The notes beneath the pieces are model-generated. The model saw only the letters and a list, made by a program, of their open reading frames with translations. It was not told the origin of the DNA and did no database searches. Positions 16,942-22,417 of a stretch of 64,000 nucleotides of DNA are shown piece by piece (position 1 is the stretch's first letter; the number at the start of each line of letters is the position of its first letter). A program made the position numbers and the translations under genes. Origin of the DNA: Methylomonas rapida (GTDB lineage Bacteria; Pseudomonadota; Gammaproteobacteria; Methylococcales; Methylomonadaceae); NCBI RefSeq assembly GCF_024360925.2, contig NZ_CP113517.1, positions 620,001 through 684,000 on the forward strand. Direction: 5' to 3'.

Positions 16942-17463
16942 ATGCAATTTGAGATCGAATTCGAGGTGGGGCATCTGGAGCGGGTGCTGGAGGCGGTAAG
17001 ACGTGAGATTGCAACACCGGAGGAGATGCTGGACAGCATCGGCGAGTCGCTGTTGCGGGTTAACAGGCGGCGGCATGAACAAGGCGTCGATCCGGAGGGT
17101 AAGGCATGGAAAAAGCTATCGTCATTGACGCTGGCTGAGGGTAATCGCAAGGGCGGACCGCTGAAAAAAACCGGTCGGATGTTGGCCAGTCTGAATTATC
17201 AGGTTTCAGCTAATACGTTGATTTTAGGATTTGATGGACAAAGGGATTCAATGCTGGCTGCCATTCACAACGCAGGCGCAGATCCGTATGTTATTCGGCC
17301 GCGTACTAAAAAAGCGCTGGCATTTGCGGGTATAGTTCGTAAGCGAGTGAATCATCCAGGACTGCCGAAAAGGGAGCTTGTTGGCTTTCCGGATAGCGAT
17401 AAAAACTTGGTAGAAAATGTGACGGTCGATCATCTCACACGTGTTTTAACGCGCGTTCGATGA
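16942..17463 (+). CDS. Virion morphogenesis protein, Mu gpG-like
   Basis: 173 aa. EEMLDSIGESLLRVNRRRHEQGVDPEGKAWKKLS and the later PLKKTGRMLASL match the phage virion morphogenesis (gpG/gpS) family acting in head or tail completion. It is the last recognisable phage gene; in intact relatives protease, scaffold and capsid genes would follow. Confidence 0.85.
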   Translation: MQFEIEFEVGHLERVLEAVRREIATPEEMLDSIGESLLRVNRRRHEQGVDPEGKAWKKLSSLTLAEGNRKGGPLKKTGRMLASLNYQVSANTLILGFDGQRDSMLAAIHNAGADPYVIRPRTKKALAFAGIVRKRVNHPGLPKRELVGFPDSDKNLVENVTVDHLTRVLTRVR

Positions 17464-17659: not shown

Positions 17660-18763
17660 CCTACTATCGGCATTCTCAGCGGCGCCTTGGGCGAAGAAGC
17701 CATTGCCGAACCGTTAATACCCTGGCTGCAGTCATTCCCGTTTTTCGCCGCTTACGCTGAAAAACTGGCCTTGGTGGCGACGGTGCTATCGATCACCTTT
17801 TTATCCCTGATTGTTGGTGAATTGGTGCCTAAGCGCCTGGCGCTGAATTTTCCGGAACGCATCGCCGCGCTGATTGCGCGCCCCATGCACGGCTTGTCCT
17901 TGCTGGCCTTACCCATAGTGAAACTGCTGAGTTTGGCGACGGAAGTCACGTTATGGCTGCTGCGCATCAAGCCGAAAAACGAACCGTCGATGACCGAGGA
18001 AGAAATCAAGTTGCTGCTGGCGCAAGGCACCGAGGAAGGCGTGCTCGAAGAGGCCGAATTCCGTTTCATGGAGAATATCCTGAGGCTCGATAAGCGCAAC
18101 GTGGCTTCCATCATGACCTGGCGTCAGGACATCGTCTGGCTCGATCTGCGCAAGCCGTTCCAGGAAAACCGCCAATTGATCGTCGAAAATTCGCACGGCA
18201 TCTTACCGCTTTGTTCCGGCGGGCTGGAAACGGTGGTTGGTTTTATCAAGGTCAAGGATATTCTCGACCGGGTACTGATGGGCGACCAACCCAATCTAAA
18301 CCAGATCATGGTCAAGGCATTGTACGTGCCCGATTCCATAAGCCTGATGGGCTTGCTCGAGCAATTCAAGCAATCCCACTTGCACACAGCCCTGGTCGCC
18401 GATGAGTATGGCGAAATCAATGGCTTGGTGACCTTGGGTGACGTATTGGAAGCGATTGTAGGTACGTTGGCGACCAGTCCGCTAGAAGACAGGCCGGAAA
18501 TCTTGCAGCGCGAGGATGGTTCCTGGCTGGTGGATGGCATGGTCGACATTCACCAATTCCAGAAACAATTCGACCTGGATGAGCTATCCGAAACAGCCGA
18601 TGTCCGTTTCAATACGGTTGGCGGTTTCATATTGTTGCACCTTGGCTATGTGCCCAAAGCCACCGATCATTTTGAATTCCGCGGCTTGAGGTTCGAAGTC
18701 GTCGATATGGATGGAAATCGTGTGGACAAGGTGCTTATTTCCAAAAGCGAAGGTGAAAACTGA
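17660..18763 (+). pseudogene. CNNM/CorC-HlyC family membrane protein, 5' end lost at prophage junction
   Basis: The open frame reads from the junction as PTIGILSGALGEEAIAEP, the middle of the DUF21 (CNNM) transmembrane domain, so about 70 N-terminal residues are missing. It continues with two more membrane segments, the GELVPKRLAL motif, a pair of CBS domains and a C-terminal CorC/HlyC transporter-associated domain (GGFILLHLG), ending normally after about 366 codons. Family members of about 430 aa are linked to magnesium/cobalt handling. A TTG at 17687 could start a shortened product, but function is doubtful. The missing 5' part is probably on the other side of the prophage. Confidence 0.82.
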
Positions 18764-19094
18764 TCGGCCTCTACATGATCGCAGGTATCGGATTGCCCGC
18801 TGTCGTTCTTTTTACCAGCACAGGGAGACTGGATTGAATGATAATGAAACCCAGCTTTGAATCTGTGAGTTTTGTAATCCAAAGAGCAGTAGAAACTCGA
18901 TTATTTCAAAGCAATTACTGGGTTTCGAGTTGCTCTACCTGGCCATCGGGGGCAGCCGGTCACTAAGAGACATTCGATCCACCTAAAATAGCGTTTATTG
19001 AATGGCTAGAGTTCTTCATACTGCGGACGTTCACTGAAGTATGGTTATCTCCTTGCGTTCTTTCTATTTTCAACAGCAAGGAGCTGTCAGTGTC
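18764..19094. other. Intergenic stretch, no convincing gene
   Basis: 331 bases between the truncated CNNM gene and the HNH gene. A 42-codon frame (18838-18966) has no good ribosome-binding site and is not called. An 8-bp inverted repeat with a 19-base loop (CTCCTTGC at 19049-19056, GCAAGGAG at 19076-19083) lies just past the stop of the leftward HNH gene and may end its transcription, though it has no T-run. Confidence 0.5.
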
Positions 19095-19775
19095 TCATTT
19101 TATTAAGGTGATGCCAAGACGAGTCTTTCTTAAAGGTGAAAGGGGTACCTCACCTTTATGAGCCTGTAAAGTGTAGCGCAGTGAGGTCAAATCGTCATTA
19201 ATAGCTTGTTCTTCGGTCGCATACTCAGCCTGTGTTATCAAATTCGCTTTGAGCTGTTTAGCAACTGCTTTAAGTTGAAGCTCCTGTTGTTCAATCTCCG
19301 CAGTTAATAAGCGAACAGTTGTTAATGTGCCAAGCCTATACTGAACTAAGGCATCATCATTTAATTGCAGTAATTCTTCAGTATGCTTTCCATATGGCGT
19401 TCGGGCCTCAACCTTACCCGTTTTGGAATTGAACCGAAGATGAGCAGCCATCCCATGATCGCAGGGGTTTACAACGTAAGGCCCAAGTTTTTCGTCAAGC
19501 GGCCAATCATTGTTCTTTCGACTATTGCAGTTACCGCAGCAATAATACAAATTATCATAGTCGCAAACTAGGTTTGCGAATCGAGGGATACTCTTTGGCC
19601 TGTAATGATCAACACCAAAGTTGAGATTTGGCGCGCTACTGTCAGGTTGGCGACAGTACACACATACTCTGGAAAACTCTGCTTGCAGATAACGCTTGTA
19701 CGATTGGTAGCGCTTGAACTGCCGTGGTGAAAGTTGTCGCCTGTGCTTGGTTTTAGGGTACTGAAATACCGTCAC
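19095..19775 (-). CDS. HNH endonuclease
   Basis: 226 aa. The HNH core is clear: CVYC (C38, C41), VDHYRPKS (D56-H57), YDNLYYCC (N75) and GNC (C80, C83), i.e. a zinc-stabilised beta-beta-alpha-metal nuclease of the type found in PtuB and retron-associated HNH proteins. The C-terminal half is helical (about residues 130-200). It is the last of three tightly linked genes (ATGA overlap with the preceding one). Expected to cut DNA; its control is unknown. More AT-rich than its surroundings. Confidence 0.85.
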   Translation of the reverse strand: MTVFQYPKTKHRRQLSPRQFKRYQSYKRYLQAEFSRVCVYCRQPDSSAPNLNFGVDHYRPKSIPRFANLVCDYDNLYYCCGNCNSRKNNDWPLDEKLGPYVVNPCDHGMAAHLRFNSKTGKVEARTPYGKHTEELLQLNDDALVQYRLGTLTTVRLLTAEIEQQELQLKAVAKQLKANLITQAEYATEEQAINDDLTSLRYTLQAHKGEVPLSPLRKTRLGITLIK

Positions 19776-20311
19776 AGTTTAGATTGAATTCCAAGGCGCT
19801 TTGCGCGTTCTTCGCGAGCTGCGCGAATGCGAGCTAACTGCGCATTTGCATCCTCTAAGGCGATTACTTGCTCTTTAGATACGAGCGGCGCGCGCTCCGA
19901 GAGACGACTATTGAGAATTTCCAATCGAGCCAATATTTCCGACGACTGGGCGTTTCCACTTGCATATTTGGCTGCCATCAATCTGACGCGCTGCTTAGCG
20001 ATTTGATCGACTTCTACGCTTCGCTGCGGCACAACGTTGGCCGAAGTATAAAAATTTACGGACTCTTTTAACGTAGGAGTTGATTCTAAGGGCGGCTCTA
20101 ATTGCGGTATTGGTGGCTTGGTCTGCGCAAGTGGTCCTTTTGTTGTGGAAAATAAATCAACAGCCTTAGCCTCTTCGGTTACAAATGCAGTCTGGTTTGT
20201 CAGACCTTTGATTTCTGGAGTGTTTCGATCGCGCGACCTTGGCTGAAAAGGTGCGATATTAAGCGCAACTACCGGATTAATAAATGGCGTATGGTCTATG
20301 TAGAAATCCAT
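19772..20311 (-). CDS. Unknown protein of the HNH cassette, coiled-coil C-terminus
   Basis: 179 aa. N-terminal half Pro/Thr-rich and low in predicted structure (about residues 1-100); C-terminal half helical with a coiled-coil (ILARLEILNSRLSER, later ALEDANAQLARIRAAREERAKRL). It follows the TIGR04255-like gene by 8 bases and overlaps the HNH gene by 4, so the three form an operon. I do not recognise a family; a linker or adaptor between its two partners is a possible role, by context only. Confidence 0.6.
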   Translation of the reverse strand: MDFYIDHTPFINPVVALNIAPFQPRSRDRNTPEIKGLTNQTAFVTEEAKAVDLFSTTKGPLAQTKPPIPQLEPPLESTPTLKESVNFYTSANVVPQRSVEVDQIAKQRVRLMAAKYASGNAQSSEILARLEILNSRLSERAPLVSKEQVIALEDANAQLARIRAAREERAKRLGIQSKL

Positions 20312-20319
20312 GATTTCAC

Positions 20320-21102
20320 TCAGGCTCTCTTCTGGTGACTTTCAGATGACAAATGTTCACGAGCTTTGGGTCCTAGTGCCCAATCGAAGACATCAAAGGC
20401 TTGTGAATGCATTACGTCTAAAGCTTCCCCAGTGTTGACAAGTTGTATTTCATTGCGGAATGCATCAATGTCTAATAAATACTGAGGAATCATTTCTCCT
20501 GCGGTTTGTTTGGGTTTCAAGACTATGCCGTGTTGCAACAAACATCCGCCATCATCCGCCATAAGTTGCAGCTTGCCAGCGTATTCATGAATCCCTTTGA
20601 AGCATCCTGAAAGAAGAGGACCAACGAGTTCAGGATTCACCCAACCAAGCACTGGATTGGTATCGCTGTCGACTATATTGATATAACGAAGACCAATCCG
20701 GGTGAAGAAGTCTGAATCGATAATTTTGGACGCGGCCTCGACTACGCGCAACACTCTTTCTCTCATATGCGCATAATCGCTGTATGCGGTAGTTTCCACT
20801 GAAAGGGAGCTTTGTTTTAACGATACTGTCCAGGTAAACTTTGCCGACCGGAAGATATGAGTGTGAGTATTGTTTGAGCTGTTAGCGCCGATCCCCAAAC
20901 TAACTTCATTCGCCAATTCAAGGTGAGGGTATTCCTTCCTTAGTGCTTTGACCAAAGCAGCCGGAGGTCGGGGCTCGCCGAGCTCCATGAGCGTAGGGAA
21001 ACGAAGCTCGCAAACAGCTTGGTGTAAGAAGTTGCGCTTATATTGGTCAACATTCCTAGAACGGAGAGTCACTAAGGAGTCCGCATTCCAATTTGGTGCC
21101 AT
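20320..21102 (-). CDS. TIGR04255-like protein
   Basis: 260 aa from the ATG at 21102 (GAGAA just upstream; an in-frame upstream codon adds an unlikely hydrophobic leader). Features fitting the sporadically distributed TIGR04255 family are FLHQAVCELRFP near the start, a strand-rich middle with FTWTVSLKQSSLSVETTAYSDY, FTRIGLRYINIV near the centre, and a C-terminal LLDIDAF section. Members are scattered through bacterial accessory regions; their function is unproven, though some lie in putative defence cassettes. First gene of the operon. Confidence 0.7.
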   Translation of the reverse strand: MAPNWNADSLVTLRSRNVDQYKRNFLHQAVCELRFPTLMELGEPRPPAALVKALRKEYPHLELANEVSLGIGANSSNNTHTHIFRSAKFTWTVSLKQSSLSVETTAYSDYAHMRERVLRVVEAASKIIDSDFFTRIGLRYINIVDSDTNPVLGWVNPELVGPLLSGCFKGIHEYAGKLQLMADDGGCLLQHGIVLKPKQTAGEMIPQYLLDIDAFRNEIQLVNTGEALDVMHSQAFDVFDWALGPKAREHLSSESHQKRA

Positions 21103-21396
21103 GCTGTTCTCAAGGTGTATGAGGAGGATTATTTTAAATCGCTCTGAATTCTCCCATACGCTAACCAATTAGTCCACCTGTAGAATTTCCTACGGCCAAT
21201 TAGTTCTGAATGACGGCGTAATGAACTAGACCTGCCGGATGTCCATGCTGAAATAGAACGTCTCATTGGGGTTGCTCGTTGTCGGTCAAGTCGCCGCTGA
21301 TACCTATGTCGAAAAATAACCAGTCCAGAAAAAGTTGGTTTGCTTGGGATAATTGTGGGCTGCAACAGTCATATCTTAGTGTCGCCTGTTTTGGCG
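21103..21396. other. Intergenic stretch upstream of the cassette
   Basis: 294 bases without a convincing gene on either strand; open frames here lack ribosome-binding sites and show no family features. It must hold the promoter of the leftward three-gene cassette; a TAAAAT near 21134 (minus strand) is a possible -10 but no good -35 pairs with it. It also includes the end region of the META-domain gene. Confidence 0.4.
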
Positions 21397-21888
21397 TTAT
21401 TTAAGATAAACTGCCTCAAACAGCAATATCGATTGATTTTGCTCGTCGTATAAAGTCAGTCTTTCGCCTTGTATTGAATATCGCCGGACTCTGTTTAACG
21501 CGTCAAGAAAAGTGCTTTCTAGCTCCATAGTTTCGGCACACGCCATCCTAGTCGTTGCCAAATTCCCAAATTCCAAACGATCATTGTTCTGTTTGTATCC
21601 ACCCGAAAATCGATTACAGCCGGAAAAACCATGGACATGGTTTTCCCCGCCGCCTGTAACCAGGCTGATTTCTTTTCCTCCGGCGCCCAGTGCTGCGGGC
21701 TTGCCATTGATTTCCAGGAGTTTCCAATATGTGTTGACTAGACTAGCATCGGGTTTACTGGCTTCTGCTTTCATGGATGGCGTCGCCACATGGGCGGCAT
21801 CGTTATTAGCTGCGCAACCAAACAAGGAAAACACGGGTAAGCAGGCAAATACCAGAGCTTGTTCGTACCTCGGGCGATATGATGTCAT
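21397..21888 (-). CDS. META-domain lipoprotein (HslJ-like)
   Basis: 163 aa. Signal sequence with lipobox LFGC (about residues 22-25), then a META domain at about 50-163: NTYWKLLEINGKP, GFSGCNRFSGGY, ATTRMACAETMELE and a terminal LTLYDEQNQSILLFEA. META-domain proteins are envelope lipoproteins linked to stress or heat-shock, novobiocin or metal tolerance; the reaction, if any, is unknown. Single gene, leftward. Confidence 0.85.
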   Translation of the reverse strand: MTSYRPRYEQALVFACLPVFSLFGCAANNDAAHVATPSMKAEASKPDASLVNTYWKLLEINGKPAALGAGGKEISLVTGGGENHVHGFSGCNRFSGGYKQNNDRLEFGNLATTRMACAETMELESTFLDALNRVRRYSIQGERLTLYDEQNQSILLFEAVYLK

Positions 21889-21976
21889 CTAAATTCTCCG
21901 GTTAAAAAATACCTATGGCCGTTCAGTCAAGGGTACGCACCGCTTGCCCTTTGAGACAATGCCAGCGCTTCATGCC

Positions 21977-22417
21977 CTATCTTTTTATATTGTGTTGCAG
22001 CTCAAGCGATTCGGTTAAGTTATAGCCATTATCATTTAATAAATCGCCGACAAAAAACAGGCGCATTTCGATGATCCAGCCGATTTTTCTTTGGTTGTTA
22101 TTCTCGATGATGACGGTCGATAGCTTGTTATTATTATCAATGATATTGGTCACTATCGTTTTAGGATTATTGATGTCTTCCTTCAGTGCGCTAGAGACTA
22201 TGCGCTGAGCCGATTCCAGGGTTAGCACTTGGTGCGTGACCGGTATTTGAGACAGTTTTTCTTCTATTAATGATTGCGCCTTGAAATAACCAATATCGTA
22301 GGCAAGCTTGGCAATCAGGCTAATGATAATCGCCACGCCCCAAACAGACAGGCCAATTTTCAATCGTCTTCTTACGCGGGGATGGGATAGTCTTTTGAGG
22401 AAAACGTTAAATTTCAT
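21977..22417 (-). CDS. Small inner-membrane protein, unknown
   Basis: 146 aa. A basic N-terminus (KRLSHPRVRRRLK) precedes one hydrophobic helix (about residues 22-45), leaving about 100 residues probably in the periplasm. Asn-rich stretch DINNPKTIVTNIIDNNNK. More AT-rich than the core genes around it. Family not recognised. Confidence 0.6.
   Translation of the reverse strand: MKFNVFLKRLSHPRVRRRLKIGLSVWGVAIIISLIAKLAYDIGYFKAQSLIEEKLSQIPVTHQVLTLESAQRIVSSALKEDINNPKTIVTNIIDNNNKLSTVIIENNNQRKIGWIIEMRLFFVGDLLNDNGYNLTESLELQHNIKR

Follow-up and report, generated by a model that had tools for sequence, protein, structure and literature searches.

What do three small genes on the chromosome of Methylomonas rapida, lying close to a phage remnant, do together, and do they form a unit at all? 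We examined them in a stretch of 64,000 nucleotides, hereafter the window, from this 4.59 Mb Methylomonas genome. A preliminary description, made from the letters alone, had listed a TIGR04255-like protein, a middle protein termed coiled-coil and an HNH nuclease, and had tentatively read them as sensor, adaptor and nuclease of an anti-phage or anti-plasmid module. The three genes are as follows.

20320..21102, minus strand: TIGR04255 gene, 260 aa, first in the operon; NCBIfam TIGR04255 score 121.7 bits (cut-off 30)
19772..20311, minus strand: middle gene (MID), 179 aa; N-terminal half predicted to lack structure and helical C-terminal part at about residues 96-173
19095..19775, minus strand: PtuB-like HNH nuclease gene, 226 aa, GTG start; Pfam HNH at 22.8 bits

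An ORF check of the window recovered all three as one leftward operon in the order TIGR04255, MID, HNH, with an 8-base gap between the first two genes and a 4-base overlap between MID and HNH. The coordinates, strand and spacing first described were thereby confirmed. The TIGR04255 start was placed at the ATG at 21102. The longest frame extends to 21168, and the ATG is supported because the alignment of relatives begins at about MxxNWNADSLV. The cassette had also been called AT-rich. Its GC content was 45.7-46.2% across the three 1-kb segments from 19001 to 22000, against 50-61% in 59 of the other 61 segments. The remaining two were also low (45.3% at 6-7 kb and 48.6% at 22-23 kb), the phage stretch at 6-7 kb thus being as AT-rich as the cassette. 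Promoter and terminator scans yielded about the same as shuffled sequence.

The assignment of the first protein to TIGR04255 held, the match extending across residues 20-251 and far exceeding the curated NCBIfam cut-off. At E values up to 1 the protein had no match in Pfam and none in NCBIfam besides TIGR04255, its best PDB match by sequence had an E value of 0.44, and a profile comparison between TIGR04255 and the HNH protein gave no match. The NCBIfam entry consists of a name with no function given, and that name was absent from the main texts of openly licensed PMC papers. We obtained an AlphaFold2 model from 28 sequences (pLDDT 83.4, pTM 0.81), whose predicted secondary structure was read as two repeats of roughly strand, helix, three or four strands, helix. 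The TBP fold has this repeat topology of strands and helices, and it binds DNA in its known members. Among PDB folds, none matched the model at E ≤ 1e-3 (EspG5 chaperone, 4.4e-3; YwmB, 7.4e-3). Since these matches were all weak, no PDB fold is claimed. In a viral structure library there were nine matches at E ≤ 1e-3, most of them without a name, including a Marseillevirus protein named transcription factor TFIID (6.3e-5) and a protein named TATA box binding protein (1.0e-3). The TM-scores were low (0.47/0.58 for the best match, which is unnamed, and 0.10-0.31 for the other eight), and the TBP-like fold is therefore a lead. As modelled, the fold looks duplicated and TBP-like and is not recognisably that of SecB. 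A SecB-like identity was considered and found no support, as no SecB appeared among the best 50 of 1283 PDB fold matches or in the Pfam and NCBIfam scans.

The middle protein had been described as unrecognised, and no useful family match emerged across Pfam (best E 0.16), PHROGs (best E 0.6), NCBIfam or PADLOC (nothing in either); sequence comparison with PDB gave no match. The term coiled-coil proved loose. The low-confidence model (md6453ad89833, pLDDT 60.6) had three C-terminal helices, preceded by about 95 residues predicted to be mostly structureless. An alignment of relatives revealed a conserved block near the C-terminus, RLEILN..P.V. In searches of the family, class genomes and plasmids, MID was located only between TIGR04255 and HNH, and no stand-alone MID without TIGR04255 was found in the class genomes or plasmids. 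It was present in four of 237 family genomes in a protein search, a fifth listed match (L014) being false and by eye polysaccharide-export-like, and in two of 369 class genomes. A profile of the MID C-terminus had two strong matches among 339 genomes; we left out three weak ones (E 9.3e-4 to 5e-3), which lie in frames of 455-882 aa.

The HNH gene was intact, as first reported. Residues D56-H57, N75, C80 and C83 were kept in all nine aligned rows and C38/C41 in eight, the ninth (L088) being an N-truncated frame. The Pfam HNH family (PF01844) was reached narrowly, with 22.8 bits against a gathering cut-off of 21.4, together with these conserved Cys, His and Asn residues. There was no PDB match by sequence at E ≤ 0.01. 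The nuclease was found at E ≤ 1e-15 in three of 41 relatives, all of them MID carriers; the fourth carrier (M. koyamae, G107) lay outside that sample. Two plasmid-borne HNH relatives (L210, L211) had receiver-like and histidine-kinase-like neighbours and a methylase-like gene in the vicinity, an arrangement that differs from the TIGR04255 cassette.

Nine loci elsewhere carried the three genes together and in the same order, one of them with broken frames; the co-occurrence check was thus positive for Methylomonas, Lysobacter and viral contigs. The unit was present at other sites in three further Methylomonas genomes, in Lysobacter soli (53, 34 and 57% identity for the three genes in order) and in four viral contigs. 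The TIGR04255 proteins of Lysobacter and the viral contigs were 53-61% identical to that of the window. In the viral contigs the unit stood beside an integrase (L021), behind an integrase in a filamentous-phage contig with rolling-circle replication, protein IV and Zot-like families (L022), with a phage portal gene about 4 kb away (L023/L024), and near phage methyltransferase and endolysin genes (L025). In a divergent copy (G410, L026/L088) TIGR04255 was split over two frames and the HNH frame was shortened.

The TIGR04255 family extends well beyond this cassette. Its profile matched 35 of 369 class genomes and 30 of 398 phylum genomes, the window's genome being in both, and none of 14 control genomes. 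Two close same-strand ORFs followed TIGR04255 at 35 of 39 class loci and 28 of 30 phylum loci (34 of 40 and 28 of 30 in an earlier count with slightly different rules). Among control ORFs of 200-400 aa the figures were 21 of 85 and 5 of 32, a rough rate that may be too low because mechanical ORF calls include spurious ORFs. On the upstream side, only 7 of 39 and 6 of 30 loci had a same-strand ORF of 100 aa or more close to TIGR04255. In the class sample 46 match rows gave 39 stretches, beside the L040 stretch, and in the phylum sample 33 match rows gave 30 stretches (of the other three rows, two belong to the window's own genome and one, G809, was left out). Excluded before counting were L094 (no TIGR04255 ORF recovered by the profile), the second L088 fragment, L006/L007 (duplicates of L096/L097) and L009 (a partial TIGR04255 match on a Methylococcaceae contig). 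Viral contigs were scanned with conserved peptides to gather relatives for alignments, and these scans are not prevalence estimates.

When 127 third proteins, drawn from loci in plasmids, genomes and viruses, were clustered, the largest group, with many viral-contig rows, comprised 73 proteins with a CD motif (TCD; LTQTCD or ISHDCD, then often an RYGRPAFP-like stretch). The others were HNH (10), Cys-hydrolase-like proteins (6), small-protein groups of 12 and 5, another group of 4, HEPN-like (3), PIN (2) and 12 singletons, which included PemK/MazF and Fic. These sizes are not prevalences, because many viral rows are near-copies. The PemK/MazF protein exceeded its Pfam cut-off (1.1e-18), as did PIN at two loci; Fic did so only just (24.9 against 24). 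HEPN-like and Cys-hydrolase-like are labels that we assume from motifs, and the members tested had no Pfam match. The CD-motif proteins tested (examples are L118 5490-6338, L018 5368-6210 and relatives) belonged to no Pfam, NCBIfam or PADLOC family, and they are a candidate undescribed effector family. PemK/MazF, PIN and Fic families are mostly known as toxins held by antitoxins, and HNH is not a classical toxin of toxin-antitoxin systems. Third genes from known toxin families in the sister operons point to a toxin-antitoxin-like logic.

Several other TIGR04255 loci deserve mention. A further TIGR04255 operon, which belongs to the HTH-middle/CD-motif class, is present in the window's own genome (G000:C1:37061-37840; L062 4992-7305). 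A second recurring pair behind TIGR04255 consisted of an NWDGYGA-like middle protein and a small third protein often with HANI (L175 3518-4414, L069 5720-6626), the L069 pair having no informative family match. On a Rhizobium plasmid (L015 1159-4738), multiubiquitin, ThiF and DUF6527 genes lay just upstream of the TIGR04255 operon. A virus assigned to Methanobacteriales (vir080) had TIGR04255, a middle-sized ORF and, by eye, a HEPN-like third gene. In a phage-collection record with a TIGR04255 match (L212) there was no such operon, and the next ORF was membrane-protein-like.

A TIGR04255 tree was computed by a quick method, with some long branches, from 80 of 104 rows; 24 rows were left out (23 near-copies or partial, one short), as was the phylum sample. 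Three labels were set by eye: L076 (PIN), whose mechanical ORF chain ran beyond the operon into a neighbouring gene, and L071 and L080 (CD-motif). The TIGR04255 proteins of the HNH class formed one clade (SH-aLRT 96). For the CD-motif class, no fewer than four changes on starred branches are required. PIN, Fic, HEPN-like and CD-motif third genes occur side by side in an unstarred subclade (support 91). An example of exchange is L082, which has a HEPN-like third gene; L190 is taken as its main partner because the third gene of L083 is truncated. Its TIGR04255 was 57, 44 and 39% identical to those of L083, L190 and L192, whose third genes are a truncated 74-aa CD-motif remnant and CD-motif ORFs of 232 and 197 aa, respectively. 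The HEPN-like third genes of L197 and L202 were 32-33% identical to that of L082, and their TIGR04255 proteins had no significant BLAST match to that of L082. With related TIGR04255 proteins accompanied by unlike third genes, and related third genes by unlike TIGR04255 proteins, it follows from these comparisons that third genes are exchanged among TIGR04255 operons.

The middle protein of L082 aligned in its N-terminal region with L083 (residues 16-68) and L190 (residues 1-60; shuffle p 0.003 each) and at its C-terminal residues 134-152 with L197 and L202 (p 0.003 and 0.033), these p values being uncorrected and coming from short alignments in 17 comparisons. There was no significant match to L192, L195 and L103-L105 on the CD-motif side (p 0.15-0.52), to vir080 (p 0.09) or to L064, L081, L180, L079, L072 and L071; the Fic-class L102 matched across residues 46-124 (0 of 300 shuffles). 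From this one case, a bipartite middle protein whose N-terminus follows TIGR04255 and whose C-terminus follows the effector is weakly supported. No middle protein tested was named as an antitoxin by Pfam or NCBIfam. A hydrophobic N-terminal segment was seen in 30 of 38 CD-motif middle proteins, in the single HEPN-like and single Fic cases, in one of two PIN, 3 of 13 WDG (NWDGYGA), one of nine HNH and none of four NLP (Cys-hydrolase-like) proteins, and the single HNH-class case was ascribed to a wrong start. It exceeded shuffles (p ≤ 0.05) in only 6 of 38 CD-motif proteins and 7 of 68 over all rows. We therefore rejected it as a general feature of middle proteins, and a common chaperone-addiction segment is unsupported.

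Taken at just under even chances, our preferred reading is that the cassette is the HNH class of a widespread group of mobile three-gene operons, tripartite toxin-antitoxin-like, with a constant TIGR04255, a bipartite linker or antitoxin and an exchangeable effector. A tripartite toxin-antitoxin logic fits the variety of toxin families, the unchanging gene order and a middle protein made of a tail plus helices. The following mechanism, from the binding partners and neutralisation to the trigger, the target of the nuclease and the role in defence, is inferred. In the resting cell, TIGR04255 would hold MID through the disordered N-terminal part of the latter, and the helical C-terminal part of MID would bind and silence the HNH nuclease. 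A phage product or other trigger would then engage the beta-sheet of TIGR04255, MID would be freed or destabilised, and the released HNH would cut nucleic acid and stop the infection.

The closest parallels are toxin-antitoxin-chaperone (TAC) systems. In CmdTAC, a phage capsid protein draws the chaperone off the antitoxin and the toxin is freed, according to PMC11618068. HigBA-SecB TAC and CmdTAC share with the cassette the three genes, the proposed logic of effector, antitoxin and third protein, and varied toxins (PMC11618068, PMC6377645). However, TIGR04255 is not SecB-like by family scans or among the best 50 PDB fold matches, and would take the part of chaperone or sensor with another fold. 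The contact proposed here also involves the N-terminal half of MID, whereas the chaperone-addiction sequence of TAC systems is C-terminal (PMC6377645). The PanAT (Panacea) network likewise has one constant gene with many toxins, phage-borne loci included (PMC8832971), but it has mainly two genes and Panacea itself is the antitoxin, while TIGR04255 units have three genes and a middle protein that changes with the third gene. By its probable working logic we file the cassette as tripartite toxin-antitoxin-like, outside TAC proper. No HNH tripartite toxin-antitoxin operon of such kind appeared in the literature titles and abstract openings searched; it may have been described under another name.

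The nuclease itself recalls Septu. It matched the PADLOC PtuB models at 5.2e-24 over about residues 12-194, reached 44.4 bits with NCBIfam PtuB (44.2 when the genome was searched), short of the cut-off of 150, and scored 33.3 bits against TIGR02646 (cut-off 52.15). No PtuA-type ATPase adjoined it, the neighbours scanned being CNNM, META and an unnamed 146-aa protein. The sole PtuA model run across the genome (PDLC00292) matched the HNH protein itself and four weak sites elsewhere. Membership of Septu was excluded by the curated PtuB score (44.4 against 150 bits) and the missing PtuA ATPase. The cassette thus resembles Septu (PtuA/PtuB) and the PtuAB of retron-Eco7 in having a PtuB-kind HNH nuclease, and differs in lacking the ATPase and in its sub-threshold PtuB score. 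Relatives of PtuAB are reported to cleave tRNA or DNA. PtuB without PtuA gave no growth arrest in retron-Eco7 (PMC11555353), so the HNH class may need activation and not release.

This leads to the strongest alternative, a Septu-like defence nuclease in which a sensor would replace the PtuA ATPase: TIGR04255 would sense invader nucleic acid or protein, MID would be the adaptor, and the otherwise inactive HNH would be switched on within the complex. We consider it rather unlikely. Like the toxin-antitoxin-like reading, it would require all three genes. It would account for the proximity of HNH to PtuB, for the resemblance of the TIGR04255 model to viral proteins named TFIID and TATA box binding protein, and for the presence of the unit in viral contigs, but it does not sit well with PemK/MazF, PIN and Fic third genes in sister operons. 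This is the view of the preliminary description, which is partly supported: the genes do co-occur elsewhere, but an arrangement of sensor, adaptor and nuclease leaves out that other third genes are carried by most sister operons.

The surroundings of the cassette hold the following features.

17666..18810, plus strand: CNNM/CorC-type transporter gene, 3' part only; matches a portion of a longer chromosomal copy at 99.4% identity
18818..18940, no strand: dispersed repeat, about 120 bases long, which adjoins the seemingly mobile block on its left
18939..21344, no strand: block common to Methylomonas SURF-2 (G138), blastn 97.8%; window flanks unmatched there
21269..21923, minus strand: META-domain gene region with a second chromosomal copy (L171) at 91% identity

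To the left lies a phage remnant (756-17463) with transposase, transposition protein, terminase, portal, head and neck-type genes, which we take from its gene order to be Mu-like. Its last recognised gene, of the neck/tail-completion kind, ends at 17463, and the duplicated piece of the host CNNM gene follows directly; the longer copy is in the same chromosome (G000:C1:4450701-4453212, L172). The cassette had been said to lie next to a prophage remnant. The phage genes are there, but given the truncated CNNM copy in between, it lies near the remnant and outside its recognised part. The dispersed repeat occurred at many sites in genomes of the genus Methylomonas, with 14 copies in 12 stretches at 70-83% identity to that of the window; L165 and L169 each had two copies close together.

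The 2.4-kb block at 18939-21344 takes in about 240 bases upstream of the operon. Slightly shorter blocks were 89% identical in M. koyamae (G107) and 80.7% identical in G117. Outside the blocks, the window had no match in the surroundings of the G138, G107 and G117 copies, around which the ORFs differ by eye; the G107 contig ends soon after the cassette. Among the matches listed in a genus search, cassette DNA occurred in 4 of 37 genomes, counting that of the window. With a matching block and unmatched flanks in three genomes, the cassette apparently moves as one piece. From this mobility and the prophage carriage, we favour a defence or mobile-element role.

A mobile-element role alone, that is, an addiction or maintenance module of phages, plasmids or islands that has no part against other phages, is unlikely. 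In its favour, many viral contigs contain TIGR04255 operons, and of the seven plasmid records with a TIGR04255 match six are typed conjugative and one mobilizable. However, no complete mobile element was recognised by eye among the ORFs around the unit in the Methylomonas genomes, and defence genes also use plasmid, phage and island locations, the same kinds of place. That unrelated passenger genes were grouped by chance at a rearranged spot is highly improbable: duplicated fragments and a dispersed repeat do make up a patchwork at the window locus, but the same three genes keep their order at nine further loci, and in Lysobacter and the viral contigs TIGR04255 is only 53-61% identical.

A broader proposal can be built on the tripartite toxin-antitoxin-like reading, and we hold it as possible though on the doubtful side. 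TIGR04255 would be a universal control protein of prokaryotic immunity, a sensor with a duplicated TBP-like fold, unrelated to SecB, that would hold the N-terminal tails of exchangeable antitoxins or linkers. It would arm six or more unrelated effectors (HNH, PemK/MazF, PIN, Fic, HEPN-like, Cys-hydrolase-like and CD-motif) in bacteria, plasmids, prophages and a virus assigned to an archaeal host. The family is present in 35 of the 369 class genomes, yet no assigned function was found for it. If a constant switch of exchangeable toxins is what these operons encode, the mechanism of one class would explain many of them, and several new candidate effectors would be named, the CD-motif family first. 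There would also be a second route to tripartite toxin-antitoxin immunity, one that does not use SecB. TIGR04255 may thus be a common switch of bacterial self-defence.
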